DNA of 64,000 bases from Chamaelirium japonicum. Its lineage: Eukaryota; Streptophyta; Magnoliopsida; Liliales; Melanthiaceae. Below the pieces are notes generated by a model, which was not told where the DNA came from, ran no database searches, and was given only the letters and a program-made list of their open reading frames with translations. Position numbers and translations under genes: made by a program. Where the stretch lies: contig OX393550.1 of assembly GCA_947650365.1 (NCBI GenBank), positions 103,679,843 to 103,743,842 of the forward strand, written 5' to 3'. Shown in pieces: positions 5,800 to 51,020 of the stretch. How positions within the stretch are numbered: position 1 is the stretch's first letter; each line of letters begins with the position of its first letter.

Positions 5800-6310
5800 C
5801 ACCACATAACTGGTTAGCCCACCAGACGTGGTTGTTCAGGGTTTAAGACCGTTTTATCATAGACAGAAACACAGCTTAGTGCACCGGTGTCTGCTCACCT
5901 ATCTGTGCATCGTGTTGGTTCTATTCGGCCATAATATTGTGCTTGGTAATGACCGTGGTGGAGACACACACGCTCTGTTATCCCAATAGCTTATCCTGAT
6001 AGGGCGACCGACTTTAATTAGAGCTGTGAATGAATTTAGATTACATGGGACTAGTCCATTGAGTCTGCCACTCAAGTGGATTACCATGTAACCATAGCTC
6101 TCTATTCTGTAATCAGAACACATACTAAGGTACTTAGCAAGATGCATTCCTAATCTATCAACCATACACAGCTAAACTATAAGTTTTTACGAGCTATAGA
6201 CCTCATCAATTCCAACATCGTGGGGGATACACGGCTACCGTGGTACATCCGACCACGGAATATTTTCTCCCTGATAGTTGAGCTGACCTTTTAAAGTGGT
6301 TCGGACCCTT
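5800..6310. other. No gene seen
   Basis: About 500 bases without a recognisable gene or repeat. Only short chance reading frames occur. Confidence 0.4.
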
Positions 6311-6316
6311 CTCCGC

Positions 6317-6835
6317 CCTAAACCTGTAAACGGATCAGATTTGGATCGGATTAGGCTATATCCAAATCTGGTTCGTTAAGTAAACGAGTCATCGGATTCG
6401 GATGTTATTTGATCATCAGATCAAAAAACCCAATTCATATCCATTTAAATAATCGTATCAGATTCAGATCATGGACAAGAGTACTTCGGACGGTTGTGAT
6501 ATCGTTAAGCGTCGAACCGATAAAAGAATAGTTGATTCCGAACTTGGGACCCAGAAGAGTCAGGATAAAATGTGTCTCGATCGGGGGACCATGAGAATCT
6601 TTTTTATATTAACCCTTAGGACCTTAGATCTAAATCGTTCTAATCTAACAATGACTAAAATATAATATATTATGTAATATTTTGTCGGATCGGATTCTTA
6701 GAGGATTAGAGTGGCCTAAATCCATATCCGGGTTGTTAATAGTTATCGGATTCAAACTGTTATCGGATTATTGGATCAAAAAAACTTATTTATATCCAAC
6801 TAAACTGATCGGATTCGGATCAAAATCCGCTCCAT
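6317..6835. mobile_element. Putative MITE built of GGATCGGATTC motifs
   Basis: Both ends carry dense GGATC/GGATT motifs in opposite orientation around a unique centre, as in foldback hAT-like elements. I could not find clean terminal repeats or a target duplication, so the boundaries are approximate. Confidence 0.35.
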
Positions 6836-6954
6836 AGACAGGTCTTTTCTCAGGTTCGCCTAGACGTTGATGGTTGAGGTGTAGTCCTAATCTCACCCGA
6901 CTTTATGGAAGCCGACCCACAAATGCAGAAAGCAACGGTAATCCGAGCCCGTGC

Positions 6955-6971
6955 CACGTGCTATCCACGTG
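6955..6971 (+). promoter_or_regulatory. Two adjacent G-boxes upstream of the DUF1645 gene
   Basis: CACGTG occurs at 6955-6960 and again at 6966-6971, about 180 bp upstream of the start codon. Paired G-boxes bind bZIP and bHLH factors and can act as abscisic-acid or light response elements. That fits reports of stress-responsive DUF1645 genes. Function here is inferred. Confidence 0.6.
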
Positions 6972-7063
6972 TTCTTTTCTCATTCGCCACAGTTTCTGAA
7001 GGGACGTTTACATAAACCTATGGGACGACACACCAGACCCATTCTGCGGCCTGCCGCATTTCC

Positions 7064-7071
7064 AAACCCTA
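7064..7071 (+). promoter_or_regulatory. Telo-box
   Basis: AAACCCTA lies about 80 bp upstream of the DUF1645 start codon. In plants this motif is frequent in promoters of ribosome-biogenesis genes, including snoRNA clusters. It is of interest because four snoRNA genes lie downstream in the same orientation. Confidence 0.5.
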
Positions 7072-7152
7072 GTGCCACCGCCCCGCGCCTCCTCCCCTCT
7101 CTCTCCTTTTCCGATCGTCGCCGGTCGGTGATCCGATCGAGTGATCGGGCCG

Positions 7153-8340
7153 ATGATGGCCTCCGCCTGCGTGACCAACACCGGAGTCTCACCGGAGACG
7201 TTCCTCGACTACCCTCCGGCGTGCCCGACCTACGGCTGGCTTAGCCCTAGGATCTCCTTCAGCTGCGACCTCGCCGGCGACGGGCCGAAGAGCTCCACGG
7301 AGAATCCGGAGGCTGGCTCGTACCCGGCCGGACCGTCGGGGGAATGGAGGGACAAGCCAGATCCGGACGCCTCCGCGAAGGATCTCATCGATTTCGAGTT
7401 CCTGCTCGAAGATCCCGCCATGATGCTCACCGCCGACGAGCTCTTTTCTGGAGGGAAGCTGGTGACGCTCCAGAAGGCGGCGGCCGCGCGTCCCGCGGCG
7501 GAGCCCTCGAACGAGATCCCATCGCCGGAGCCGCTGGACTCACTGGGTGCTGGGAGCCTCTTGGACCCCTCCGCTCCGTCTCCCAAGGCCCCGAGGTGCT
7601 CGAGTAGGTGGAGGGAGCTGCTTGGCCTGAAGAGACAGCAGCAGCAGCAGCAGGGCGCCAAGATGGAACAACAGAAGGCCGCTGCTTCTGCGCCACTTAA
7701 GAACCCTAACCCGAAGTCTTTGAAGCATTTCCTCCATCGAAACCCCAAATCCTCCACGACTGATCCGTCTCTGAGCCTCCCATTGCTCCGGGATGGTGAT
7801 TGCGACTCTACATTTGTTTCGTCCCACGTTTTCCTCTCCTCCTCCGGCGTCGGCCCCGACCACGAGGAACCCCCCCGCCTCTCACTCGACTCGGAGAAGC
7901 CGATCCAGGTCCCGATCTCCCATGGCCGGATGCCGCCCAGGGTGCGCGTCCCCCGGACGGGGTCCGCGGCCGCGAGATCCGGACGTAGCACGGCGCGGCG
8001 CGCGGCGCCGGCGCCGCGGGCGGCGTCAGTGGACAGCCCGCGGATGAACTCGTCGGGGAGGGTGGTGTTCCAGGGCCTGGAGCGGAGCTCGAGCAGCCCC
8101 GGTAGCATCTACGGCGGGCTCAGGGTGAGACATAGGGGGGTGGAGAGGGCCTACTCGGCCGGCGTCAGGATCACCCCGGTGCTCAACGTCCCGGTGTCGG
8201 TCTTCGGTCTGGGCCAGCTCTTCGCCCCGCAGAAGAAGGAGAGGGACGGAGCCTCCTCCAGAAACGGCGGCGGTGGCGGTGGCGGTGGCGCCGGCAATAA
8301 CGGCAGCATCAGAGGCAAGATCGAGAGGGAGAGGGCATGA
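7153..8340 (+). CDS. DUF1645 family protein
   Basis: A 395-residue single-exon gene. The frame is open from 7141, but that codon is GTG, so I start at the first ATG, 7153 (a second ATG follows at 7156). DUF1645 hallmarks appear in order: FEFLLEDP near residue 81, ADELFSGGKLV just after it, the basic SSRWRELLGLKR segment near 155, PKSLKHFLHR near 192, and the C-terminal AGVRITPVLNVPV followed by FGLGQLF. A six-glutamine run follows the basic segment and a glycine tract lies near the C-terminus. There is no signal peptide or membrane segment. Members are plant-specific; a rice member is linked to stress tolerance and grain length, but the molecular role is unknown. Coding GC is high, as in many monocot genes. 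A good splice donor sits 10 bases past the stop, which suggests an intron in the 3' UTR. Confidence 0.9.
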   Translation: MMASACVTNTGVSPETFLDYPPACPTYGWLSPRISFSCDLAGDGPKSSTENPEAGSYPAGPSGEWRDKPDPDASAKDLIDFEFLLEDPAMMLTADELFSGGKLVTLQKAAAARPAAEPSNEIPSPEPLDSLGAGSLLDPSAPSPKAPRCSSRWRELLGLKRQQQQQQGAKMEQQKAAASAPLKNPNPKSLKHFLHRNPKSSTTDPSLSLPLLRDGDCDSTFVSSHVFLSSSGVGPDHEEPPRLSLDSEKPIQVPISHGRMPPRVRVPRTGSAAARSGRSTARRAAPAPRAASVDSPRMNSSGRVVFQGLERSSSSPGSIYGGLRVRHRGVERAYSAGVRITPVLNVPVSVFGLGQLFAPQKKERDGASSRNGGGGGGGGAGNNGSIRGKIERERA

Positions 8341-8350
8341 CGAGATCCAG

Positions 8351-8352
8351 GT
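8351..8352 (+). other. Candidate 5' splice site just after the DUF1645 stop
   Basis: The sequence CCAG|GTAACC begins 10 bases after the TGA. If used, it would place the four downstream snoRNAs in a 3'-UTR intron of the DUF1645 transcript. No transcript evidence is available from sequence alone. Confidence 0.35.
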
Positions 8353-8385
8353 AACCAAAATATCAATAAAAATTTGGCACTTCTA

Positions 8386-8522
8386 CTTGAACATACAAGG
8401 GGACATTCACCCGACAAAATGCTGACGTGGGGCCATCTGCCAGCGCTCAGTGCATCCGCCATCGCACCGACGCCCACCCAGACCTACTGTTTGTCCGCAT
8501 TATGTGCCCTTTTTTGTTCAAA
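8386..8522. mobile_element. Short TA-flanked MITE, degenerate copy
   Basis: Begins CTTGAACATACAAGGGGACA and ends near GTTCAAA, flanked by TA dinucleotides. It is a diverged relative of the better-preserved copy at 10543-10696. No coding capacity. Confidence 0.65.
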
Positions 8523-8732
8523 TAGTATCTTCCATAAAAAAAAATAAGCTCAGTTGACCGTTCTTTCAGGTTCCGAAATGATTTTTCTTTTGAGATCGAA
8601 TATTTTTTTTAATATTTTAATATTCGAAAATCTATACTGTGCCATATCTCTCTCTCTCTCTCATCTGATTTTAGATCCATTTTAATTATTTTTAAAAATA
8701 TTATAAAGGTTGTGGTTTGTCGTGTAGTGCTT

Positions 8733-8821
8733 TGGGAGATGATGCGAGATATGGATTAGTTCAGAGAGGCTGCCAACTGCCAGCTCTGCTGAAAATAATT
8801 TTGCACGTCAGTCTGATCCCA
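8733..8821 (+). ncRNA. Box C/D snoRNA, copy 1 of 4
   Basis: About 89 nt. A closing stem TGGGA/TCCCA brackets box C (ATGATGC, 8739-8745) and box D (CTGA, 8813-8816). Immediately upstream of box D is the guide TTTTGCACGTCAGT, complementary to ACTGACGTGCAAA of large-subunit rRNA. Counting five bases from box D places the predicted 2'-O-methyl on the A of CTGA in that rRNA sequence, by my reckoning yeast 25S Am876 (guided there by snR72). A second CTGA further upstream could be box D', but the sequence before it differs between copies, so only the box D guide looks constrained. Box C departs from RTGATGA at its last base. Confidence 0.8.
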
Positions 8822-9590
8822 TGGGACCCATACCCCACTTCTGTATCCTGGTGGCCCCCACCTCTTACCAGTCCTTCCCCTCCTATCAATTCCAATGGCC
8901 ATATAGTAAATCTTTCTGTTCCCCCATGTGCCATGCAACTCATGCAGCATGTGCCTTTGTGGGCTTCTTCAGCACTATCTCAAATCAAATGGTGTAGTTC
9001 TGATTGTGTAGATTCTCTTAGCTGTTCATGTTTATGAATTATGATTATCATATTTAAGGGGTCTCTTAATTGTGACGCATTAGAGATTAATCAAGTCGCC
9101 ATGTTGGATTAATCCACTGGCCGCATGTGAAATCTTCAATGATTCCTTGCTGAATAAGGTGCAGTCGTAGAATTGACTAATGGGAAAAGAAAGACGAGTT
9201 TACTTGGATTAATAAAATGATATTCAAATTTCAATAAAGCAAGCGGATACTAGATGGATGATCAAGACGTCTGTGCCAAGGATCGAATGAGATAACAATC
9301 ATTGGGAATAAAGTGCATGTAATAAAGATCATTGTTTTGCTTTACCCTCTTCTGTCGCCGTTACCGAAGAAGGTTTTGTTTGATCATGAATCGGAAAAAT
9401 AAATATTGCAATGCAATTGATTGTAGAAGTAAGTTTACTAGTAAACGATCGGAAGTGATAGAGGGAACTCTTGATCCGACGAGATGTGGGAGAGAGGGCG
9501 GGAATGGGGAGGTGACATGTGGCACCAAATGTCTGCATTTTATTAGTATTTTAAATTTTTTATTTTTTCTTTGCTTTGTTGTGTAGTGTT

Positions 9591-9680
9591 TGGGAGATGA
9601 TGTGAGATATGTATCATATGATTCATATCCGAGGCTGCCAAGCTCTGCTGAAGATAATTTTGCACGTCAGTCTGATCCCA
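9591..9680 (+). ncRNA. Box C/D snoRNA, copy 2 of 4
   Basis: About 90 nt. Stem TGGGA/TCCCA, box C ATGATGT at 9597-9603, box D CTGA at 9672-9675, and the same guide TTTTGCACGTCAGT before box D. It differs from copy 1 mainly in the segment between box C and the putative box D', which contains an extra ATCATATG-like stretch. Its surrounding spacer is clearly homologous to that of copy 3. Confidence 0.8.
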
Positions 9681-10542
9681 CCCCTCTTTTTTTCTCGTGT
9701 AGTGATTCCCACCTCTATTTGTTTGAATTGTTATATAAAAAAATTTCTGTCCCATTTTTGGCATCGAGCATATGCCTAGTGTCTTTCGACTCTATTTTGA
9801 ACCTAATAGGGCAGATCAGATAGTGTAGATTGTCCTTACCTAATTTTAGTACTATAAAGATATTTGAGGAAGTGATGTGTCCGATTAATTGTGCCACTTA
9901 ATGGTAAAGCCATGTGGTCTGTGAAATGATTAATGATCATCACGAAATAATAAGGCTAGCAAGTGATAGAGTGTGGTTACTTCACCATAAGATGCATTGG
10001 TAGAAATACGACTAATAGGATACGTAAGACTACAAATAAAATTCAAATTTTGACATAGAAGTATTAGAAAGCATTTGCAGCTAGTGAGTAGTAGATGGGT
10101 GTCCCAGCGCTTTGTGCCAAAGATCAAAGGACGAGATAATAACCATAAGCTATCAAGCATAAGTATGAGTTGTATGACCATTTTTCTCTTTACCATCTTT
10201 AGTCATTGTTCTCAAAGTCATGTGGCACCAAATGTCTCCATTTTATTAGCATTTGTAGATAGATGTACTGAATTGTCTTATCCCTTGACTATTGTGATAG
10301 TGGAAATAATATGTTACATATGAAACAAGTGGGACATATTGTTATAACAAAGTTGGAATTGCTTGAAGACCATGTCATTAAAGAATCCATGGTAGTTGGT
10401 TTGATTTTTTTTTTAAATTTGAATTTGAAATACTGTCCTTTTGGCTAAGTTCATGTGTAGTATCCAACAGAGATATCGAATAAACTTATTCCAAAGTGGG
10501 TGCTTTTTAGTAGTTTGTAGTTCTTATTTTTGAGCCCTGCTA

Positions 10543-10696
10543 TTTTGAACATACAAGGGGACATACTTGCTGGCATAATGCCAATGTGGGGGGCTTTGCC
10601 TAGCGCTCAGTGCACTGGCCATTGCCCCAAACGCTTAATGAAGCCCCCCCTGCATCGACATTATGTCTGAGTGTACGTCCCCTTGTATGTTCAAAA
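10543..10696. mobile_element. TA-flanked MITE with 24-bp terminal inverted repeats
   Basis: 154 bp; left end TTTTGAACATACAAGGGGAC and right end its near-perfect reverse complement (one mismatch over 24 bases), flanked by TA on both sides. The TA duplication suggests a Tc1/mariner-like origin, although the ends are not those of Stowaway. It sits in the spacer between snoRNA copies 2 and 3. Confidence 0.85.
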
Positions 10697-10721
10697 TAAC
10701 ATTCTCCTTGGTTTTATAGTG

Positions 10722-10724
10722 CCG

Positions 10725-10748
<24 letters not shown>
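10722..10748. repeat. Poly(C) run
   Basis: About 27 consecutive C residues just upstream of snoRNA copy 3. Length is likely unreliable in any assembly. Confidence 0.85.
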
Positions 10749-10755
<7 letters not shown>

Positions 10756-10811
10756 AATTTTAAGTTCATTTTAAAAATTTTTAATTTTATTTTGCTTTGG
10801 TGATTAGTGTT

Positions 10812-10892
10812 TGGGAGATGATGTGAGATATGTATCATATCCAAGGCTGCCAAGCTCTGCTGAAGATAATTTTGCACGTCAGTCTGATCCCA
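10812..10892 (+). ncRNA. Box C/D snoRNA, copy 3 of 4
   Basis: About 81 nt, the shortest copy. Stem TGGGA/TCCCA, box C ATGATGT at 10818-10824, box D CTGA at 10884-10887, same guide upstream of box D. It shares with copy 2 about 600 bp of downstream spacer, so these two are the most recent duplicates. Confidence 0.8.
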
Positions 10893-12089
10893 CCCCTCCT
10901 GTTTCTCGTGCAGTGATTCCCACCTCTATTTGTTTGAATTGTTATATAATACCATTTTTGTCTCATTTTTGGCATGGAGCATATACCTTGCGCTTTTCAA
11001 CTCTTATTTGAACCTAATAGTGGTGTACATTGTCTTCACCTAATTTTAGTATTATAATGATATTTGAGAAATTGAGGTGTCTGATTAGTTGTGCCACATT
11101 AGGTAAACCCATGTAGTCTGTGAATTGATCAATGATCATAACGAAATAATAGGACTAGCAAGAGATATAGTGGTTACTTCATCATAAGGTGCATTGGTAA
11201 AAATACAACTAATAGGATAAGACAAATAAAATTAAATTCAACTTTTGAAATAGAAGTATTAGAAAGCATTCGTTGCTAGTGAGTAGTAGATGGATGTCCA
11301 AGCCCTTTGTTCCGAAGATGAAGGGAGGAAGCAACAACCACAAGCTGCCAAGCATAAGTATGAGTTGTATGATCATTTTTCTTTTCACCACCTTTAGTCA
11401 AAGACAGGTTTACTAGAAGGAAAAAAATTATAAATAGTTGGAGGTATAATCACGCTTACTACTTTCTAGCATAAAATTGGAACTGATAGAGGAAACATAT
11501 AGAACATCTCTCAGCACAAGAGAACCTATAAGAACCTTGCCAAATGATCCAAGAAATTTATTTCTTTGGAGAAGTAAACGTAGATGGTTTACTAGAAAAA
11601 TAGATAGTTGAATGTAAATTATTTACTTGGTGAGCCATGGGTTGTTAGTTATCTGTATCGAGAAGTACAAGACGTTGGCAAAATTGCATGGTTATAGAAG
11701 GTATGCCTGATTAAGGATCACTTGTTTGATAGTTGCTCGAGTGGAACAAATCGTTCCAGGATTGAAGCTATGCCAATGACCTCAAAAGAAGATAATATGA
11801 AAGGAAATCTTACTCTTGACATTATGAAAAAATAAATTTTGGACAGAAAAACTACATTTGCTAGAGAATGTCTTGATTATAAATACAATGTACAAGGCTA
11901 TCATATCCCTTGATTGTCGGGATGATGATGAAAGCACGTGTTACATATAGAAAGCATGAGATATGTTAGGGAAAGTCGGATTTTTTTTGTGGATTAATTT
12001 ATGATGCACACATTCTAATTCTCCTCAGATTTTAATTTCATTTATTTCCAGTAATTTTAAAATATTTTGGGGTGCTTTGTTTTGTAGCA

Positions 12090-12180
12090 TTTGGGAAATG
12101 ATGCGAGATATGAATCAGGTCAGAGGCTGTCAACTGTTAGCTCTGCTGAAAATAGTTTTGCACGTCAGTCTGATCCCAAA
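12090..12180 (+). ncRNA. Box C/D snoRNA, copy 4 of 4
   Basis: About 91 nt with the best closing stem, TTTGGGA pairing with TCCCAAA. Box C is ATGATGC (12098-12104) and box D CTGA (12170-12173). The guide is AGTTTTGCACGTCAGT, again matching the rRNA segment over 13 bases. The middle differs from copies 2 and 3 and is closer to copy 1. Confidence 0.82.
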
Positions 12181-12359
12181 CCCCTACTCCACTTTTCTCT
12201 TTTGGTGGTCCTCACCATTTTCAGTTTGAACTATAATGTTGTTAACTACTTAACTTCTATCTCGAGTTTTGTGCCATGGAGCCATGTTCCTTGTGGTTTG
12301 CTGCATTTTTTCCAATCCAAATAAAACAAAGGCTGCCGATGATGCAATATACGCTCGGG

Positions 12360-12534
12360 CAGTGTTTTAAAACTCAGTAAAACTTGATTGAGTCAAACCG
12401 AATCGACTCAAATCGGTCAGATTTCGAGTCGAGTTATTCAGCCAAGTCGGACCGAGTTTGGATAAAACTCGGCCGAATCGAACCGAAATTACTCGACGTA
12501 GCTGACTTTCGGGTCGAGTTCGCGTCATTGAACA
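12360..12534. mobile_element. 175-bp MITE with 11-bp target duplication
   Basis: Ends are TGTTTTAAAACTC and, on the other strand, TGTTCAATGACGC. Flanks ATACGCTCGGG (12349-12359) and ATACGCTTGGG (12535-12545) form an 11-bp duplication with one mismatch. The interior is made of ACTCGG/CCGAGT motifs. A 9-11 bp duplication would fit a Mutator-like origin. It lies inside the spacer of the fourth snoRNA unit. Confidence 0.8.
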
Positions 12535-13829
12535 ATACGCTTGGGGTTGCAATTTGATCAAGTTATGTAGATTCTCCTCAATGATTATCTTTTTATCTTC
12601 TTTTATCACATACTTTGTTTTTTAATGCAACTGTCCTTGTTTTTCTTCTTGTGGTGCATTAATTTAATTTTTTTGGGGGATTTTGTGCGTTAACTATAGG
12701 GAAATATATTTTTGATTTGTCTTATGATTTACTCTTTATGAAGCCGACCTCAAATTTATGAGACAAGGCCCTGTGGTTATGGTCACTGCTATGAATTACT
12801 CTTCAACTCCAAACCTTCAAGTTTGACGTGTTGGCACCCAAATTGAGAGTGAAAAGGTTTGGTGTTGAAGGTACACAAGTGTTCCATTTTAAGGTAGGTG
12901 GTAGTAGGGACACACTCAAGTTTGTTTGAAAGGGCAAAGCTCGAGTAAATATTGAGAAGATGTAGATGTTCAGTCCAGCAACACCGTCATGTGGGGGAGT
13001 GATCCATCTCTGAGTTGCAACACATTCTATAAACCCATGTTCATGTCAAATCATTAATAATCATCAGGAAAATAACTTGTAGCCCATATCACAATGAAAT
13101 ATTTGAAAAGTAGTTGTAGTAGAAATCTAACCAATTGGAAAATATGCTTGCTTGGCAATAAGTTGAACAGCATCTTTCTAGAATTTTGAAATAGATATAT
13201 AAGTAACCATCTATGCTAAACATTCTAATCGATGAATAGATTGATGTCCAAACTGTTGTCGCCAAAAAGTAAAGAGTGTGTATAACAATATTATTGGTGG
13301 ATGAGGGTTAATTAAAGACCATTATTATCTTTGCACTCTCCAATCATCCTCATTCTATGATGTAGGAATTAGCAAAATTTTATACAACAATGAATAATTC
13401 TTTGGATATTTCTTGAAAGATTGGTGGTTGTCTGTTAAGTATTTACTTTTTCTGGAGGAAAATAAAGATGGTGGCATTGCTTGAGCGAGGATCGTTGTGA
13501 AACATCTTGTTGAAGGCTGTGAAACAAGCATCATTCCATAATTGTCTGAAAATGTAGACTTGGAGTTGTCGTCGACCTTAAACTGTTGGTTAAGAAAACA
13601 TGTTTATCATCACTTTAAGTAATGAGTTGTGGTGACCATCGATAGCAAATATGACTATAGCAATGAGATGATCAACTTAAAGTTGATGCGAAAGATATCA
13701 TGAAAAATTAAATTTTAGATGGAAATCTATACTTCATTATACTAGTGTCCTCATTACACGAGGTACAAGACTATCATCTCTCTTCATTGTTAGGAAGGCG
13801 ACATGTTACATGTGAAAACCGTAGGATTC

Positions 13830-15670
13830 TAATATAAGTATCCTCATGTACACTCACGCACGAGCATGCACACACATATAGGCATAGAGAAACCCTTTAT
13901 CTATGATAACACAACCACCATTCTTCCACACATCTTAGATTAATTTGGAGTAACACCTAGTGGAACATTGCTTTGTATGTCCCTATAAAGCTTGAAATTT
14001 CTTAGATCTATCCAAACCTAACAACTTGAAGTCCCAAAACCACTTTTTTAAAGGAATAATGGAAATTTAAAATTTTATTAACTTGTTCATTTTTTGCCTA
14101 AGGGATTGGGTCTATGCTTTGGTCTAACCAATTAAGTCCTGTTTCATTAAACCCGAGAACAGATTCCACCCGGATCAGATCCATCTTGCTAATGTAACTA
14201 CATGTTTCTTTAAGCCCAAACCCAAACACACCCGAATAGTCTCATCTAAATCTACTTTTATACATATTAATATTTATAATATTAAGCTTTGGACTCCACA
14301 AAGAGCATTGAAGGAAATTCACTTACCATGGGGATTGGGCCGATTGGCAATATAGCATGCTTAGACAACTAAGCAGGAGGGAAGATGATACTGGTTGGGT
14401 GAGGGATCTCACCAAAATAGAAGGATCTCACTCTAAGTGAATGATGTAGGTTTTGTAATTTGCACATTTAGTTCACATCATGGTAAGTTTTGGTTATTTG
14501 ACGAGGATTTCGGGGTCGGGTGTGGATGAAATTTGGTGGTGAGCTAGGTTTATGGGTTAGCTAACTATGGTGAAAATTTGAAGGTGATCATTGGGTAAGT
14601 CGATGTGGAGATATCTAGGATTTTCCAGACCTGGGTTTCACAGTCCAGATATGGAATTAGTTACTATTGGGTTTCAATTAGGTTTGGAAAATTGGTGCTT
14701 TTCATGTGGAAGACTTTAGGAATGTTGGAGCTTCGTTAGAATCATGTTTCAAGAGATTTGGATGGGTTCTAATGAGTTTTTTTATTGCGAAACATGATTA
14801 GGTCGTAGAGCTTCAGTAGGGTGAGAAGATTATATTGGGTAAAAAGGTTAGAAAGAGAGAGGAGATAAGAATATTACCAGGGCATATCAGACCCTGCGAC
14901 CTCTTGCCAAGTATCCTAGGTCTCTCCCTGTTGGGGAAGACAGGCCATCACAACCCTCTTTAAAGTCAAGTGCTTCATAATATTTTTATTCATCATTAAC
15001 ATTGTTCATAGTAGTGGCTTTGGGGTACTTTTATAGCCTCCCAAACAATACATTACTACTGGTACTAGTTCTAGGGCTCCTCGTACACATAGGAGTTGAT
15101 TCGGATGCCTAATAAACTTACGAAACCCTTATAACATTGGTTTTGAAATATGCAGAAATTAAACCAAAAATAAATCTGAAAATATTAGATGACACACCAA
15201 ATAAATTACGAATGGCTCCAAACAAGTGGGCCATCAAATCTAGTCTGAGTCAGGCCTTGGAATCCGTGCATGATCCCCCATCATAGGGCTAGGGTGAGGA
15301 ATGGGAGGCCTTCCACCTGCCCTTAGGAAGTTTTCCATCCACATGTTATGATCATCATGTTCCTAGATGTGATATCCGTTTTCTATGTTTGATCACAGAG
15401 CTCGCATGCTTTTTTGATTGATCATTTCAAAGTTTGAGACTGTAGGCTTGCGATGAATCTTGTTGTCATCATTTAAAACAAAAAGAACGGTTTTACCTGC
15501 TTGCATATAATTAAACCTGAAATTATTATTTCCCAAGAGTTTAATGTACTGAAATAAAACCCAAGCCTAAACCGCGTATGTTTGAAATAGCTGAAAGAGA
15601 TGTATAGCATCTATCTACTTGTAAAACTTTATGGCTTGGTATTATAATGTCGATTGTCAAATATTTTGTG
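13830..15670. other. No gene seen
   Basis: About 1.8 kb of AT-rich non-coding sequence. No repeat or RNA was recognised. If the splice sites near 8351 and 15675 are used, this is intron. Confidence 0.4.
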
Positions 15671-15675
15671 TGCAG

Positions 15676-16090
15676 GGACAGGAAAACGACGAATTCATGA
15701 GGGTTGTGTAAACTGTAAAGAAATGCATTGGATGTTCTTGCAAGCTGGAACAACGCTGTTGCCTTCATCCAATGGAATCCTCTGGAGCTCGAGGTCTCTA
15801 CTAGCGATCTCACAATCAATTCTGAACATGGTTCCTTCTGCGACCTCCTCGACAATCAGGATGATCTATGAATATGATTGTTCTTTTTTCTTTCTTCCAT
15901 ACTGTTCTTTTGTATAATGCTGTGAATCAATCCGCCTTTTGCTGTCATCTTTTGTGACAATGCTTAATCTGTGGATCTATTTCATGATCCGGTTGAACCG
16001 GAAAGTGTCCGCAGCTCACCAGCCTCGACGGTTTACTTGTGTAACATTGTAGTTGCTTCCTCTTTCTGTGCTGTTAAGGAAAAGCTGTTG
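15676..16090 (+). other. Possible terminal non-coding exon
   Basis: A plausible acceptor, TTTTGTGTGCAG|GG, ends at 15675. The following sequence is less AT-rich and ends in T-rich stretches like a 3' UTR. It could be the end of the DUF1645/snoRNA host transcript. The evidence is weak: no long reading frame and no clear AATAAA. Confidence 0.22.
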
Positions 16091-16200
16091 CCACTACAGA
16101 TTCTCTTTTTTTTCTTTTCTTTTCATCTCCTTTAGTTCTTGGTGGTTTGCTAGTGAGATTACTCATATTCTTTTTAGATGATTTGCTGTAGGTGGAAGTA

Positions 16201-16600
16201 GAGGAGTGTTGCAGTGAGCTATCAGCTATAAGAGAAGAAAATGAGTTGCGATTGAAAATGCCACTTTATAAGTTTCAAAATTGATTGAAATTTAGTTGGT
16301 GTGTTGTTTAGGGTAAGATGATCATCATCACCAATTTTCAACAAATGGTAGAAGCTTTATCAATCATCAAATAGTAGAATCTTTATCGACCGTTCATAGT
16401 AACTTTTAATTTTTTTTAGCACGTTTAATGATCCTATAAGTTTTGGAATTTCTTAAAAATTATCAAATTGGTAAGGATGGTCTTCTTACCCTAAACAAAA
16501 TACCCACTAAATTTTAACAAAAATTAAATTATTTAGGGTGGCATTTTGATTGTAGCTCATTTTCTCCTATTGTTGCTTATAGCTCATTATAACATTCCTC
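16201..16600. mobile_element. Foldback MITE with arms of about 120 bp
   Basis: The left arm (GAGGAGTGTTGCAGTGAGCTAT at its start, then AGAAAATGAG, AAAATGCCAC, GTTTAGGGTAAGA) is repeated in inverted order at the right end finishing at 16600. The centre of about 150 bp is unique. I could not define the target duplication, so the superfamily is open. Confidence 0.75.
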
Positions 16601-17027
16601 ATATATCTTCTGTTTTATATAGTAATATAATTGGATGACTTGGTAATTTTGTATGGAGATCAAAGTTGGTCATGGCAGTTGCTATATACATCACAGTTTT
16701 TCATAAAGGCAGGTCATGACTTACGGGCAACTCTGTCATTTGCTTTTGCTTGGGGTAGCTTGTGACCCCCGTCTTCCTCTTTCGTTCCTCCCTAACTCAT
16801 TGTTGCTCGTGCATGTTGCCGATCTCATTCAGCTGTCCCATTCAACGTCGTCAATCCCATCAAACCCACCACCACCACCTCCATCTTTTGTTTTTCTTCC
16901 TCTTCGATCTCCTCTATCTTCCTCGATCTTTTTTTTCTGCCTACATTTGACCATTTTATACCGTTTGATACTACAACCCATTCGGCCTAGTAGACTGAAT
17001 GCTCTATAGAAGTACTCGTCTGCCATT

Positions 17028-17207
17028 TATCACTCGGCCTCCAAAGGCCGAATGATCTCTGGGAGCACTTGGCCTCTAACAGCTGAATATCGTGCACTAG
17101 GCCTCCTTTCGATCACTCGGCCTTCAGCGGTTGAATGGTCTATACGTGCACTCGGCCTTCAACAGTTGAATGGTCTGTAGGAGCGCTTGGCCTCTACTGG
17201 TTGAATG
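17028..17207. repeat. Minisatellite, units of about 36-45 bp
   Basis: Four to five imperfect copies of a unit like CACTCGGCCTTCAACAGTTG followed by AATGGTCT. No reading frame runs through it convincingly. Confidence 0.75.
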
Positions 17208-17209
17208 AG

Positions 17210-18524
17210 ATTACAGATCGAGTTACTTTTTCAGATGGAGGAAGAAGAAGAGGAGGGAGCAGGAGGAAAGCGGGGTGAGCAGCAGCATTCATGGATAAGA
17301 AAAGGGTAGAATGGGGGTTGTCTTGTGGAAGTCCCCATGTCACCTGTTCACTGGACTAGGGCATTCGACAGAAGCATGGTGCCTTTATCTGGTTTTTGGG
17401 GGATTCCAGCTTTGAATCCATTTATGTACTCACTTTATCTAATGCACATGTTGGGGTCTGCCTAACCCCCTCCCGATATATAGGGAATAAGTGTTTTTTT
17501 TGCTGGACCAGTCAGGCGATCAGAGGACAGGGCGTTAGAGCAAGAGCTCAAAGTGGTCCGGAGATTGAAACAGTAGGAGGTTATTAAATCCCATAATCCC
17601 TTGAACATGACATCAACGACCATGGATTTTTTTATTTTTTTTGCAATTCAAAACCAACCTCTTATTACTCTGTCATTCTCTATCCCGGCATTGGGTACCA
17701 ATCCCAACTAGTTGCCTAGAGCCAGTAGGCCGGGGAGCGGCCATGATTCGTACGTGCAAACAAGGCACAACGGACTTGAGGGAAAGTTCGCTCCACAACG
17801 TACATACCGGGAGTCGAACATTGAAGGATTGAACCTATCCAACTTGGGAGAGGATGTTCCACTTGGACAAGAGCCCGTTGGTTTTGTTCACATTAGTCGG
17901 CAGAGGAGAATTGGAGCTACCTTGTCCCTATGCCAAGTTAGCAGGGATAGAAACCGGTGCTATTGCGATTGTATCTCGTGATTAGTCAACTGAACACCCA
18001 TGTTTACAGGAAAACTAGTACGTTCTTTTTCTTTCGTGTGTTTTACAGGCAACCAAAAATAGCCTTTGATTTTTTTATCTTTTCAAATTAATCGAAGGGC
18101 AGTTTTGCAACCTAAAGGAGTCGTTTGGTTCTTGTGTTTTAAGTCTGTGATTCTGAAAACACATGTGCAAACAGTTTATGATTGTTTGGTTAATGGTGTG
18201 TGATGTGTGTAAATAGATGCACACTTACTTAATTTGTACAGTTTTTGCACATAAAACTGTGCAATTAAAATTTAACCTAAACACATGAAATTTTAATTGC
18301 ACATGTCACATGCGCAAGTAGATGTACGCACATCATTTGCACGACAACCAAACGACCCGAAAAGGTTTTCTTCTGGGCCTCCTAATACTTTTAAGTTTAT
18401 TTTTTTTTCTGTAATAGGGGGCCCGACTACAGTTGTAGAGGCGAGAAATCGGAGAAGGAAGTCCACCTCTCTCTTCCTCTCTAGGTCTCCTGCTCCAACC
18501 ATTCTCCCCATTTGAAGCCCAATA
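17210..18524. other. No gene seen
   Basis: Unassigned non-coding sequence. Short open frames near 17640-17980 show no recognisable domain and no homology I know. Confidence 0.4.
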
Positions 18525-18532
18525 GCGCGCAT

Positions 18533-18870
18533 TAGAGATGGCAAGGTGCGGTTTTGGTGTGGTTTTGGGCAAAACCAAAATCGCACCGTAACAACGAACC
18601 ACCACACCGAAACCGCACCGCACCGCAATGGTGTACCATTATGTAAAACCAAAACCACATCATGCAGTGCGGTGCATCGCGGTTTATCATTATAATGGTT
18701 TAAACGGTGCGGTTTTATGTGACATTGGACAAAACCGAAACTGCACCGCAGCACCGAACCGCAAACTGAAACCGCATTGTGACGGTTTGATATTTTGGCA
18801 AACCAAAACTGCATTATGCGGTGCTGTTTAGCACGGTTCTTGGTTTTAAACCGCACTGCTGTCATCCCTA
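18533..18870. mobile_element. hAT-type MITE of the CCGCACC family, complete copy
   Basis: 338 bp, ends TAGAGATGGCA and TGTCATCCCTA, flanked by GCGCGCAT (18525-18532) and GCCCGCAT (18871-18878), an 8-bp duplication with one mismatch. The interior is dense in GGTGCGGTTTT / AAAACCGCACC. Further partial copies lie at 39090 and 58608. Confidence 0.88.
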
Positions 18871-19083
18871 GCCCGCATCCCTCGTCCAATGGTCGAATGT
18901 TGTAGCTAATGATGTTTGGAAGCCCCCCTCCCTCCCTGCCTCTCAGTGTTTTCTAATTTTTCAAAAATTTACCTAATAAAAAGTATATTCAAAAGTATTT
19001 ATTTATTTTATTTTTAATTATAGCACATGTTCATCCGGTTGACCCGGTGGTTGAACCAGTGATCCTGACCGATCGCTCGATCA

Positions 19084-19250
19084 GGTTAACACCCAGTTGG
19101 TGTTACGTTGCACCCTTTGAACACATGTCCTCAGTTCGAATCCTAGGGGCCACGAACGCTGTTGTTCGACAGGCATGGCAATGTCGGTAGGAAAAGTCGA
19201 AGTTGCGATGGTATGGCTCGAACCCTGGCCCCATAACAGTACAATCGCCC
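19084..19250 (+). mobile_element. tRNA-derived SINE, copy 1
   Basis: A box A-like GTTAACACCCAGTTGG and a box B-like TCAGTTCGAATCC have the spacing of an RNA polymerase III tRNA promoter. The body (GGGGCCACGAACGCTG, GCATGGCAATGTCGG) matches the better copy at 30451. The 3' end is diverged and no poly(A) tail remains. Confidence 0.7.
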
Positions 19251-19676
19251 GATGGTAGGTACCACGACAGGTGAATCGTACTCCACCTGACGGTGCACTC
19301 CCTCGGCGGTTGTGATGCGGGACGATAAGGGAACCGAAGAAGAACGATTGGAGACTATTTCAGAGTCCCTAGTACAGTGTGCCAGTACTGGTGGGCAATG
19401 AATTAGTGTAGTGCTTTCATGATCCAAAGGCTCCACATTCTGCACCCTTTGGTTCCATTCTCTCTTTAGTAGCCATCGTTCACTGAATCCACCATGGTAT
19501 TCTGTTCATTCCCACAGGTCAACCCCATCATGTGAATGAATCCATGGGATGCCCCCCTTAACTTTATGGGGTCCATCGGCCATCAAGTAGGCCCCACACC
19601 CTTTCTTCTGCATCCATACTTGGCCATGCCACTCCCTGATGCCATACATGAGAATGTAGGGAGCTTCAGGTCATGA

Positions 19677-19681
<5 letters not shown>

Positions 19682-19725
<44 letters not shown>
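19682..19725. repeat. (GA)n microsatellite
   Basis: About 22 GA repeats. Confidence 0.95.
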
Positions 19726-19726
<1 letters not shown>

Positions 19727-19768
19727 CATTTTCCTAAGTTGGATTTGGTTGCTCCTATCCAATTTTTA

Positions 19769-19981
19769 TGGCTGCAAATAGTAATTGGGCATGTCAGCGG
19801 CCCGGATCATAATCCAAATCCGATGTGAATCCGATTGAAAAATCCCAGAATTTGTATCAATTTCGTGGTCTGAGATCCGATTAAAAATGAACTAATCCGA
19901 TTCGAAAAATAATCAGGTCAAATTCAGATCTAACACTATCTGATCCGAATAAAATTCGATCCGAAACATTTACGCAGCCTT
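19769..19981. mobile_element. Putative small MITE of GGATC/GATCC motifs
   Basis: Begins GGCTGCAAATA and ends TTTACGCAGCC, with many AATCCGAT motifs in both orientations. The target duplication is unclear. It resembles the element at 6317-6835. Confidence 0.4.
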
Positions 19982-19984
19982 TCT

Positions 19985-21205
19985 AATGCATACAGCTAGC
20001 CCTAATCCCGAATTACACGAACGGTTGTGTTGCTGCTCGATCGGATCACACATTTTCTACTCTTCGTTAAGCGTCCGAGAGGAAAGCTCATCCAACGTAT
20101 AATAGAGATATATGATAACACAAAAGGTGATTGGAGAACTTTTTCGAAATGGAACAGATGAGAGGAGTGGATAGAGATTAATGGGACAGATAAGGAGTGA
20201 TTCATATGATTAAGACTATTTTAAAACAAAAAATAAGAGTGGATGTGGTAGAGACTAATGGTCATTTATCTTATTAATGGGTGATTTATGCAATTAAGAC
20301 TTTTTACAAAACAAAAAAGAAAAGATGATAGGATAAGGGGTTAATAGGATTTTTTTTTTTAAACTTCATTGTTGGTCGTTTAATATCAATTGCACTTCTT
20401 TGAAACCAGCAGTCACTATCATTAGTATCTATCATTTTTTTAAAAAAAATTACACAAAAAAATAAAAAATGGGAGGAACGGAGGCCGCCATGCGGCACCA
20501 AAGGCCTGAGCTTTATAAGAATAGTATTAGTGTAGATAGATTAATAGATAGATGTAAAAATCTTTGTTTGATCCCCACACTTGCCTAATTATGTAGTCTC
20601 AGTATAAATATTTCCAGATGAATGGTATGGTGAAAGATGATGTGACATAAAAATCTATCATGTTTAGAACACCTTAAATGTCGACAACTATACGGTTGAT
20701 GATCCATCGATAAGATAACTCTCATGGGGATGTGGTCCACAAAGATGTATAAATAAGGATGAATGCTAGTCATACAAATTTTTTTTTTTATAAGTATATA
20801 TATGAACATGGTTGAAGTTAATCCCCCCCTATTCATGCATGCAGATGTGTCGGTTGGTCCCGACCGATATGATTGTTGATTGCTTCTGACTGACATGATG
20901 TTGTTTATGTCAGTCGATCCTGACCGACTAGAGCAACCGACAACATATCATTCATCGATCGAGAGTGACTGACATGATGTGCATATCAATATACCCAAGA
21001 TGTGGAGGGGACACATGGATCATTTCTTTTATCTTACGTTGGGGGTGTTAGTAATTTGTGGGGTGCAAATAGCAAAACCCTTTTGGCAATTAGGGTGAAA
21101 TATTTGACTAGAGTCTAGAGATGATTAAACAATAGATTAAGATTCGATTAAACAATATATTAACATACGCTATCTGTTCACTGCAATATTACTGCTAACA
21201 ACTAA
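19985..21205. other. No gene seen
   Basis: AT-rich spacer up to the LINE target site, with no coding or repeat assignment apart from T and A runs. Confidence 0.4.
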
Positions 21206-42174: not shown

Positions 42175-43520
42175 CTATTCAAAGCTACAGTTAGTTTGGT
42201 TCGGGTTGAGACACGACCGGCTAACTTACAACGGTACAAAGCAACGTTCCCTGACGTAGTTTCGACTGAAATGATGCTTCGCCTAAGTCTAACTGATACA
42301 AAGGTATTATGCTGAGTACTCCGAATAATTGGTATCGCACATGCTCCCGTTGTCACGTAAAGAGACATACACTAGTGTCTCGCTATAGTTAGTCCCGTTC
42401 GGGTTGCGACAAGACCGTCTAACCTACAATGGTACAAAGCTACGTGCCTTGACGTAGGTTCGACTGAAATGGCACTTTGCCTAAGTACAATCGGTACAAA
42501 GGCATTACGCTAAGTACTCCGAGTCATTGGCGTCGCACATGCTCTCATTTGTAATGACACATGCACTAGTACCTCGCCACAGTTAGTCCGGCTTGGGTTG
42601 CGACACGACCGGCTAACCTGTAACAGTACAAAGCTACGTGCCCGATGTAGGTTTGACTAAAATGGCGTTTCGTCTAAGTCCAACCGATACAAAGGCACTA
42701 CGTTGAGTACTCTGAATCATTGGCGTCGTACATACTTCCGTTGTCACGTAAAGACACATGCACTAGTGCCTCACCATAGTTAGTCCGACTCGGGTTGCGA
42801 TAAGACCGACTAACCTGCAAGGGTACAAAGTTACGTGACCTGACGTAGGTTTGACTGAAAAGGTACTTCGCCTAAGTCCAACCAATACAAAGGCACTATG
42901 TTGAGTACTCTGAATCATTGGTGTCACACATGCTCCCGTTATCACGTAAGGACATATACACTAGTGTCTCGCCACAATTAGTCCGGCTTGGGTTGTGACA
43001 CGATCAGCTAACCTGTAACGATACAAAGCTATGTGCCCCAACATAGTTTCGACTGAAATGACACTTCACCTAAGTCCAACCGATACAAAGTACTACGATG
43101 AGTACTCTGAATCATTGGTATCGCACATGCTTCTGTTGTCATATAAGGACACAAGCACTAGTGCCTCGCCATAAGTAGTTCAGTTCGGGTTATGACATGA
43201 CTGACTAACCTGCAACAGTACAAAGCTACATGCCCCAACGTAGGTTCGACTGAAACGACACTTCGTCTAAGTCCAATCGATACAAAAGGCACTACGCTGA
43301 GTACTCCGAATCATTGGCATCGCACATACTCCCATTGTTACGTAAGGACACATGCACTAGTGCCTCGCTACTGTTAGTTTGGTTTGGGTTACAACACGAT
43401 CGACTAACCTACAACAATACAAAGCTATGGGCCCTAACACAGGTTCAATTGAAACGATGCCTCGCCTAAAGTTCAACTGATACAAAGGTGCTACGATACG
43501 TACTTTGATTTCTAACCCTT
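42175..43520. repeat. Seven tandem units of about 197 bp
   Basis: The block AGTTAGTCCGGYTTGGGTTG recurs near 42190, 42388, 42579, 42777, 42977, 43173 and 43374, steps of 191-201 bp. Each unit also has GGTACAAAG, GTAGGTTCGACTGAAATG and GCACATGCTCCCGTTGT. The copies are diverged but collinear. It sits downstream of gag. Confidence 0.9.
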
Positions 43521-43539: not shown

Positions 43540-44760
43540 GGCCCTATCCTTGGCATTCAAAGATAAAGCCCAAGACAGTGACACCGTCTCAGCCCAAGGA
43601 GATAACCTTGGCATTCGAAGACAAAGTCTGAGGCAGGCTCCACCGCCTCAATATTCGACAAACCCAAGGCTCTGGCCTTGGTATTCAAAGACAAAGTCCG
43701 AGGCAGGCTTTGCCGCCTTGGCACCAGACAAAGTTTGATGTAAGCTTTGCCTCCTCGACACCAGACAAAGTCCGAGGCAGGCTTCACTGCCATAGCACCA
43801 GACAACATCCGAGAAAGGCTTTGCTGCCTTGGCAGCCAGTAAAACCCGAGATGGTAGCACCGTCTACGCCCAAGGAGACAACCTTGGTATTCGAAGACAA
43901 AGTTTGAGGCAGGCTCCGTTGCCTCAGCATCCGACAAAGTCCAAGGCTCTGCCCTTGGCATTCGAAGACAAAGTCTGAGGCAGGATTCACTGCCTCGGCA
44001 CTAGACAAAGTTTGAGGTAGGTTTCGCCGCCTCGGTATCCGGCAAAACCTGAGAGGACAGCAATATCTCAGCCCAAAGAGATACCCTTGGCATTCGAAGA
44101 CAAGGTCCAAGGCAAGCTTCGCCACCTTAGCACCAGACAAAGTCTAAGGCAGGATCCACCGTCTCAGCATCCAACAAAGCACAAGGCTCCGCCCTTGGCA
44201 TTCGAAGACAAAGTCCGACGTAGGCTTTGCCACCTCGGTACCTCACAAAGCTCGAGATGTTGGCACCGTATCGGTCCAAGAAGATAACCTTGGCATTCGA
44301 ATACCAAGTCTGAGGTTGCTGTCACCTCCTTGATACTCAACAAAGTCCGAGGTCGTCATTGTCACCTCAGTACTCAACAAAGTTTGAGGCCGCCAACGTC
44401 GCCTCGGCACTCGAATACAAAGTCTGAGGCCGCCGTCACCGCCTTGGCACTCAACAAAGTTCGAGGTAGTTGTCGCCATCTCGGCACTCAAATACAAAGT
44501 CCAAGGCCACTATCGCAGCCTCGGCACTCGAATAATATGTCCGAGGCTGTCATCGTTGCCTCGGTACTCGAATACAAAGTTCGAGGCCACTGCTACCGTC
44601 TCGGCACTCAACAAAGTCTGAGGTTGTCGTTGCCGTCTTGGTACTCGAATGCAAAGTCCGAGCCCACCATCGCCGCCTCGGCACTCAACGAGTCCAGGGA
44701 GACAACTCCGGCTCTTGCAGACAAAGTCTGAGGTGTTCAAACACCTTCGGCACTCAACGA
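43540..44760. repeat. GACAAAGTCCGAGGC repeat field
   Basis: Dozens of imperfect copies of a unit containing GCATTCGAAGACAAAGTC, CGAGGC and CGCCTCGGCAC. Spacing is about 45-80 bp in the first half and about 60 bp in the second. Long reading frames across it exist on both strands only because the unit is stop-poor. Confidence 0.85.
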
Positions 44761-47944: not shown

Positions 47945-48376
47945 CGCCCGCCGGCACTGATCGCTTGCCTGCGCGATGGTCAAACTCGGACAGCGGGTTG
48001 GCAGATGCACACCTGGCCAGCCCTTGGCAGGGGGTTGGCGGGCGCGATAGTTGGCCTCGAACAGTGGATCGACAGATAGGCACTTGGTCGGCTCTCGATA
48101 GGGGGTCGGTGAGCACAACGGTTGGCTCTGGACAGCGGGTCGACAGACGCACAACTGGTCGGCCCTCAGTAGGGGATCGACGGGCTTAACGGTCAGCCCG
48201 GATAGCAGGTTGGCAGACAAACACCCGGCTGGCCCTCGGTAGAGGGTCGGCGGGCACAACGGTCGCCCTCGGACAGCAAGTCGGCAGACACGCACTTGGC
48301 TGGCCCTCAGCAGGAAGTCGATGGGCGCAACGGTCGACTATGGATAGCGGGTCGGTAGACGCGCACTCGGCCGACC
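47945..48376. repeat. 70-bp minisatellite, first field
   Basis: About six units of a 70-bp GC-rich repeat containing GGGTCGGCGGGCGCAACGG, TCGGCCCTCGGTAG and ACAGCGGGTCGGCAGACG. It is the same family as 50437-51020 and, inverted, 52400-52735. The tract is interrupted at 48377 by an LTR-type insertion. Confidence 0.88.
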
Positions 48377-48381
48377 CTTGG

Positions 48382-50426
48382 TGTAACGATCGGTACTAGA
48401 AAGAAAAAAAAAACTCAACTAAAAACTAAACTACCAGTCGACTCTTGGTGTAACGACCAATCGACCCTCGTGTTGCCCCCTTGTTTGCCTCGGGCGCGGC
48501 CACCGACTGTGCACCTGACCATAGCCAAATCCTTCAAGCCCTACCATGAGTTGAGAACCCTCTTAGGGCGTCGAGCCCGATCCCTCGAGATCGGGCAGTC
48601 CTTTGATATTTTATTAATAATTGTTTTAAATCCATTGCCGGTATGGTCTTGACCATGCTAGGCTATATTATCGTGCCTTGCTAACTGGTGTTGTGCATCA
48701 GCTATTGTCAATCGGCTTTGGCCATGGGTTCAATCCTTAGTATTGCACTATCTTGTTTTGTGTGTAAAGCCATTGTTGCATTGCGCACAGTACCATCGAG
48801 CCATAAAAGTAATCACATCGACCTACGTGTCGAAGGATCGGTGATGATGACCTCTATACCCTTTTGCCAAACCTTGCCGATCTCGGGATCCGACCGGGTA
48901 AGATGTAATAGTTGTCTTTAATCCGAGCTCAGGCTCGTGCGGTTTGCTAAATCATTACAGTAAAAACCATCGTGTCCACACCTAAACTCGAGGGCATCTT
49001 GGGCGGATGACAAACCAAACCCTTGATCTTTTTCGGAACACCACCATAGATGTATTGTTTAAGTGGATAACTAGTAATGTATGGAAATGTGCAACTTGTC
49101 AGACCTTGACCGTGACGGCCCGTTGGACGTGGAGCGGATTGGACAATCAGAATTTTATATCGCAATAACTAAGGCAAGCATTCACTTGCTCTGAGGTTAT
49201 TTTCGAATTATGTTTTCGTATGCATAATTTGTGATATTTGTAAATGATTCATCGTATATTGTATGACATAACCATGAGTCGTAGGATGATTAATATTGGG
49301 TTATGGTGGCAAATTGGGTTTGACATTGTTCAATTAGAATTGCATGGCGAAATTCTTAATGTAGTCAATTAACACTCTTGTTGAGGCCCGTGCTTGCTGG
49401 ATGATTGAAAACGATCAAACACTGTATTTTTACTATATATGACATAGGGTTAGTGCTATGACATATTCTATTGGAAATTATTATAGTGTGCCTCTAAACA
49501 TATTATAATTAAGAGTTGAATGAAATATTGAATGGGAGTTGAAAAGCAAGTAGCTGAGTGGTAGTTCATAACATTTTTCTCTCAGATTGTTTCTCTCTTT
49601 GATATCGTTATATTAAATCTTAATTTTAAAGACACCCTCGCACACACTCACCCCCTTAGAGCAGGGGTTTACTTGCCAGTCAGTGGTTTGGACTGACCCC
49701 GTATGGGGCACTACTCTTTCCACGAGTAGATTTTTTTACAGAGTGGTACCAGAGCTGGAGTACGGGTAGCAGCTGCGGAGTAGTGGCAGTAGCAGAGTTA
49801 ATAGCTATAGCTTTCTCTTTGTAGTAGTCCTTTGTATGCCTTATGTTGTATCTATTGGGATTGTATTATGGATATTAGAATAAGAATATTGTTCGGTTTG
49901 GTTTAGCTTGTGGTATTGTTAGTATAGATTGTAGTTGCAATGATCAAATTGTGTTTTCTTGGTAGGCCTTTTCTCAAGGCCCAAGCCTAGGATATCTCAC
50001 AATGAAAAATATAAGTCTCTAAGTGACCTAATTGACTAGCCCATTAGATAGGATATGTGAACCAGTGCCCGAGTGCTAGAGAGCGGGCGAGGCTACTCGG
50101 CTCGCCGTCAAAGGCTTGAGCCTCGTGCTCCCCTAAGAGGGACTCCTGTCAGCATGTGGGGCACTGGCAGGCCGCACATGCTGAGAGGATAGCCCGGTTG
50201 AAGGTCGAGCGTAATCATCTCCCTGTCGATGAAACGGTTTCTCTATATTTTCTTTCAAAATAAAAATCTTTTTGTAAAAAAAAGTAAGTTTTAAAATATT
50301 CCTTGAGAGAGTAGAAGCCCTGTGAGAAACCCTAATTGGAGTAGACAGTTGACCAAACCCTAAAACCCTTGGTTTTTTTCTCAATTCACACCCCAGGAGT
50401 CGGTTTCAGATTTCTGGGGCGTGACA
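48382..50426. mobile_element. LTR-type insertion, 2,045 bp, CTTGG target duplication
   Basis: The minisatellite is split by a block starting TGTAACGATCGG and ending GGGGCGTGACA, with CTTGG on both sides (48377-48381, 50427-50431). Read on the minus strand it opens TGTCACGCCCCAGAAATCTG, a common gypsy LTR start, so a solo LTR is possible. On the plus strand, however, another TGTAACGACC starts at 48451 and a primer-like TGGTACCAGAGCT lies at 49744 after a TTTTTTACA end. It may therefore be composite. No coding sequence was seen. Confidence 0.65.
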
Positions 50427-50436
50427 CTTGGCAAAG

Positions 50437-51020
50437 GGTCGACGGGCATGATGGTCGGCCCCGGACAGTGGGTTGGCAGACGTGCTTCCGGTCGGCCCTC
50501 GATAGGGGGTCGACGAGTGCAATGGTCGGCTCTGGATAGTGAGTCGGTAGATATGCACCCGATCGGCCCTCGACAGGGGGTCGGTGGGCGCAACGGTCGG
50601 CCCCAGACAATGGGTTAGTAGATGCTCACCCGATCGGCCCTCGATAGGGGGTTGGTGGGTATAACGGTCGGCCTCAGATAGCGAGTCGGCAGACACGTAC
50701 CCGGTCGGCCCTTGGTAGAGGGTCGGCGGGCGTGACTATCGGCCCCGAACGGGGAGTCGTCAGACGGACAATGATTGGCCTCAGACAGTGGGTTGGAAAA
50801 CACGTACCTGGTCGGCTCTCGGTAAGGGGTCGACTGGCGCAACGGTTGGCCCTGAACAACGAGTCGCTAGACGTGTACCCAACCGACCCTCAGCAGGGGG
50901 TTGACGGGTGAAACGTTTGTCCCCGGACAATGGGTCAGCAAACGCGCACCCAGCAAGCCCTCGAAAGGGGGTCGGCGGACGCAACGGTCGACCCCGGACA
51001 GTGGATCGACAGATGAACCG
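50437..51020. repeat. 70-bp minisatellite, second field
   Basis: Eight to nine units of the same repeat as at 47945, continuing after the LTR-type insertion. It joins the second gypsy LTR copy through TTTTGCACCATAAAAGCC. Confidence 0.88.

Follow-up and report, generated by a model that had tools for sequence, protein, structure and literature searches.

Does a stretch of contig OX393550.1 of Chamaelirium japonicum (64,000 nucleotides, here called the window, in which all positions are counted) carry a tandem cluster of box C/D small nucleolar RNAs (snoRNAs), and which nucleotide of the ribosomal RNA (rRNA) would they address? A sequence-only reading had proposed four such genes sharing one guide against the large-subunit (LSU) rRNA, an interpretation that our analysis supports as essentially correct. 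We conclude, with a probability of about 95%, that the four sequences are paralogous plant snoZ122 box C/D snoRNA genes of the snoR72Y/yeast snR72 type, derived by tandem duplication. The evidence in hand consists of the family match, the motifs, the complementarity to LSU rRNA and a conservation of the snoRNA above that of the spacer in the three copy pairs amenable to testing. From these sequence data we infer transcription, processing, assembly into ribonucleoproteins (RNPs) and methylation in C. japonicum.

Four copies of snoZ122

When the window was searched with cmscan against 4227 Rfam families, the only gathering-level matches were to RF00343 (snoZ122, a box C/D snoRNA; gathering cut-off 38 bits). 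There were four, all on the plus strand, each covering model positions 1–89 (Table 1). Their borders differ by at most 2 nucleotides (nt) from those of the sequence-only reading, which had also placed the closing stem, box C, box D and guide where we find them in every copy; the Rfam check that it had called for yielded no rival family at gathering level.

Table 1. Positions of the snoZ122 copies and associated features in the window
Feature	Position	Strand	Details	Rfam match
snoZ122 copy 1	8731–8823	+	box C 8739–8745 (ATGATGC), guide 8800–8812, box D 8813–8816	RF00343, 47.9 bits, E 4.2e-4
snoZ122 copy 2	9589–9682	+	box C 9597–9603 (ATGATGT), guide 9659–9671, box D 9672–9675	RF00343, 49.2 bits, E 2.2e-4
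snoZ122 copy 3	10810–10894	+	box C 10818–10824 (ATGATGT), guide 10871–10883, box D 10884–10887	RF00343, 51.0 bits, E 8.8e-5
snoZ122 copy 4	12090–12180	+	box C 12098–12104 (ATGATGC), guide 12157–12169, box D 12170–12173	RF00343, 56.5 bits, E 5.8e-6
Tandem duplication of units 2 and 3, ~1.2 kb, spacers included	9549–11400	+	segments ~9549–10205 and ~10770–11400	
Open frame, candidate host or mere neighbour	7153–8340	+	ATG to TGA, 395 amino acids; upstream of cluster	

All copies contain the box C core AUGAUG, with one departure from the consensus RUGAUGA, and a CTGA box D adjoined by TTTTGCACGTCAGT; the terminal stems of copies 1 to 4 comprise 5, 5, 5 and 7 base pairs (bp), G-U pairs being allowed. 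Because the copies lack the consensus A at the end of box C, this base was loosened in a motif scan of both strands of the window (box C RTGATGH, box D 50–129 nt further on, stem of at least 5 bp), which returned four matches, all of them the snoZ122 copies. The sequence TTTTGCACGTCAGTCTGA occurs four times in the window, always on the plus strand, and its 10-nt core GCACGTCAGT has no minus-strand copy there. A permissive Rfam search of positions 6000–20000 gave nine extra matches, each under the gathering score of its own family, and no transfer RNA was detected in the window.

The RF00343 consensus is printed in upper case at AUUUGCACGUCAGUCUGAUCCC and mostly in lower case in the middle of the RNA, a pattern repeated in the four copies: their guide, box D and 3′ stem fit the consensus, whereas the middle segment diverges and carries small insertions. 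A 9-nt insertion is present in copy 2 and absent from the other three.

The predicted rRNA target

In the mechanism that we propose, each RNA would be excised from a precursor and would form a C/D k-turn RNP with fibrillarin; its guide, TTTGCACGTCAGT, would pair with ACTGACGTGCAAA of 25S rRNA and direct 2′-O-methylation of an A that lies five positions from box D and corresponds to A885 in Arabidopsis and A876 in yeast. The pairing was examined on a set of LSU-like loci, comprising the 11 of 24 fetched loci that a pattern filter retained, none of them plant rRNA. With LSU rRNA at every one of the 11, the guide of each copy forms a 13-nt duplex (without G-U pairs in eight loci, with one G-U in three), which bears out the 13-base complementarity proposed earlier. 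One of these loci, L009, was recognized by Rfam as LSU_rRNA_eukarya (1778.7 bits).

As an observation in its own right, several of the fetched sequences (L009–L012, L015, L017 and L019–L024) come from genome records labelled as bacterial. Their contigs contain eukaryote-like LSU rRNA, Rfam-confirmed for L009 only, and probably represent contamination.

The box D + 5 rule selects an A at position 889 of the RF02543 model. When seven mapped Arabidopsis sites, from 803 to 945, were slid along the printed RF02543 consensus, an offset of +4, which brings A885 to model position 889, fitted six of the seven sites (the misfit being U803) and was the best of 21 offsets; the next best fitted four of seven. 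In the excerpt of PMC8053127 used here, Arabidopsis 25S A885 is a site mapped by RiboMeth-seq, its guide being SnoR72Y, for which a footnote gives multiple gene variants, as in the four copies described here. A single table row of PMC11542601 lists tomato and tobacco Am886, yeast Am876 and P. abyssi Am881 as equivalents of Arabidopsis A885. AtsnoR72Y and SnR72 also share a row, as Am883 and Am874, in a table of PMC3511168, and the counterparts listed for N. crassa CD5 are snR72 and snoR72Y (PMC2780460). Model position 889, together with the Arabidopsis A885 and yeast Am876 entries of these tables, supports the target that the sequence-only reading had named, namely yeast 25S Am876 (snR72). For plants, the family, the target and the existence of several genes for this guide have been published before (PMC8053127).

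The present copies were compared with Arabidopsis SnoR72Y and yeast snR72 by target only, the rRNA site being equal by position. For the equivalent site, N. crassa has CD5, a double guide according to the excerpt of PMC2780460, whereas each of the copies described here seems to act as a single guide.

Several points weigh against our assignment. The LSU loci were fetched with a pattern containing the core of the target site, so agreement at these core bases is no independent evidence, unlike the LSU rRNA nature of the loci; among them, the Rfam check was confined to L009. The site number in the PMC3511168 table is 2 below that of the other tables. In an excerpt of PMC5122169, snoR72Y is ranked as a recent plant innovation and the name snoR72 is applied to an H/ACA family, which makes identification by name alone unsafe. 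The last base of box C is C or T in all four copies, where the RF00343 consensus has A; some copies could be silent; and the whole-RNA folds are unremarkable, with z values of –1.89, –0.31, –0.40 and –1.16 for copies 1 to 4. Such folds are common among box C/D snoRNAs.

Duplication, conservation and competing explanations

Units 2 and 3 share repeat families (D1, D3, D5–D8 and D10 in our repeat search) that are 85–92% alike at a spacing of 1195–1221. The block CATGTGGCACCAAATGTCT lies 73 nt before copy 2 and 591 nt before copy 3, and an extra ~0.5 kb stands between copy 3 and the block adjoining copy 2. Spacers were aligned pairwise, each score being expressed as a z value relative to 60 mononucleotide shuffles. 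The downstream spacer of unit 1 aligns to those of units 2 and 3 (z 15.1 and 12.6), downstream comparisons that involve unit 4 yield weak alignments (z 2.3–3.0), as do the upstream 300 nt in all six pairs (z 2.2–4.7). The earlier description of the spacers as widely different in units 1 and 4 thus stands for unit 4 but fails for the downstream side of unit 1.

Identity within the snoRNA exceeded that over the 700 nt of downstream spacer for copies 2 and 3 (82/83 vs 541/643; Fisher p 3.6e-5), copies 1 and 2 (79/85 vs 426/590; p 7.8e-6) and copies 1 and 3 (77/81 vs 422/555; p 2.0e-5). The contrast is conservative, because gapped alignment inflates the apparent identity of the spacers. It was restricted to these three of the six pairs because the spacers of unit 4 scarcely align; the three pairs with copy 4 have snoRNA identities of 81/91, 74/83 and 73/83, and spacer identities of 400/569, 403/567 and 393/537. 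In the four-copy alignment, none of the 23 columns that span the guide, box D and 3′ stem varies; the invariant columns number 13 of 14 in columns 1–14 (5′ stem and box C minus its variable last base), 27 of 52 in columns 15–66 and 9 of 11 in columns 67–77. Judged from the sequences, this pattern fits what selection on a single guide would produce. The sequence-only reading had seen constraint on the guide and none on the segment before the putative D′ box; the former is borne out by the invariant block, the latter is true only in part, because all four copies share an unchanged AGCTCTG directly 5′ of the internal CTGA.

The same comparisons bear on whether every copy works. It seems to us somewhat unlikely that only part of them do and that the rest are recent snoRNA pseudogenes with boxes and guide still intact-looking. 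The origin of the units by duplication would suit such a mixture, as would the extra DNA parting copy 3 from a block that copy 2 adjoins and the statement, in the excerpt of PMC8053127, that some predicted sites rest on unexpressed snoRNAs; the mixture is at odds, however, with the conservation of the snoRNA above the spacer in the three tested pairs, and with an invariant guide–box D–stem block that extends to unit 4. Far more remote, indeed extremely improbable, is a dispersed repeat or transposon merely resembling a snoRNA. Transposon-like DNA with inverted-repeat ends does lie inside the cluster (8387–8521 and 10545–10694), but these elements are outside the snoRNA matches, which are full-length matches to a curated family and carry an rRNA guide absent elsewhere in the window. 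The RF00343 match and the rRNA complementarity contradict the transposon explanation.

That the internal CTGA, with the 7 nt preceding it, is invariant speaks for a further contact with rRNA, whether through a D′ guide for another methylation or through accessory pairing beside the main site; on balance we regard such a contact as improbable. At L011, a 13-nt duplex with one G-U is formed by the segment of copy 3 adjoining an alternative D′ (CTGC), and a 12-nt duplex with two G-U by that of copy 2; in copy 4, TCAGGTCAGA forms 10 nt of duplex with LSU rRNA immediately 3′ of the main site at three of the 11 loci (L011, L012 and L021; 0–2 G-U). Copy 1 forms a 14-nt non-guide duplex, with two G-U, in L021. 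However, when duplexes of at least 10 nt with at most two G-U were counted over the 11 loci (six shuffles per copy), copies 1 to 4 gave 31, 41, 32 and 48 non-guide duplexes and shuffled snoRNAs 22–69, so that the counts are within or near chance. Among these loci, which are themselves not plant rRNA, no D′-adjoining duplex is common to all four copies, and duplexes beside the main site are confined to copy 4. Moreover, the middle of the RF00343 consensus is variable, and the predicted folds of copies 1 and 4 have the internal CTGA within the paired part of a hairpin. We take the non-guide duplexes as presumably due to chance. The hairpin (CAGAG/CUCUG and neighbours), which is formed differently in copies 2 and 3, is a possible reason for the conservation of AGCTCTG.

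If the cluster consists of four genes for one guide, as we favor, the redundant copies would plausibly supply dosage, not new targets; up to four C/D snoRNAs per rRNA site are given for Arabidopsis in the excerpted review PMC11542601. The gain is four more gene copies of a known guide, and its value lies in annotation. The locus also offers an example of a guide held identical while its duplicated surroundings diverged; our understanding of snoRNA action is unchanged by it.

Possible host gene and genomic setting

The open frame upstream of the cluster may be a gene, or a snoRNA host; it had no Pfam match at E 0.001. A telo-box-like AAACCCTA occurs upstream of it, at 7064, and a donor-like CAG|GTAACC has its GT at 8351, 10 nt past the stop codon. 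We consider it rather doubtful that the four-copy array lies in a spliced 3′ untranslated region of this putative protein-coding gene; if it did, one protein gene would double as the source of one and the same methylation guide in several redundant copies. A motif scan of the cluster region found donor- and acceptor-like strings to be frequent there and detected no upstream element of the plant small nuclear RNA type. The distance between snoZ122 copies, 0.8–1.3 kb, is wide for a plant polycistronic snoRNA cluster.

Two elements resembling miniature inverted-repeat transposable elements, one before copy 1 (8387–8521) and one in the extra DNA before copy 3 (10545–10694), have inverted repeats near TTGAACATACAAGGGGACA. 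The assembly may be weak at 10725–10748, where 24 consecutive C residues lie upstream of copy 3. Elsewhere in the window, long tandem-repeat arrays with periods of ~37–40, 71 and 198 bases occupy 42187–43508, 43689–44689, 47985–48382 and 50435–50873.
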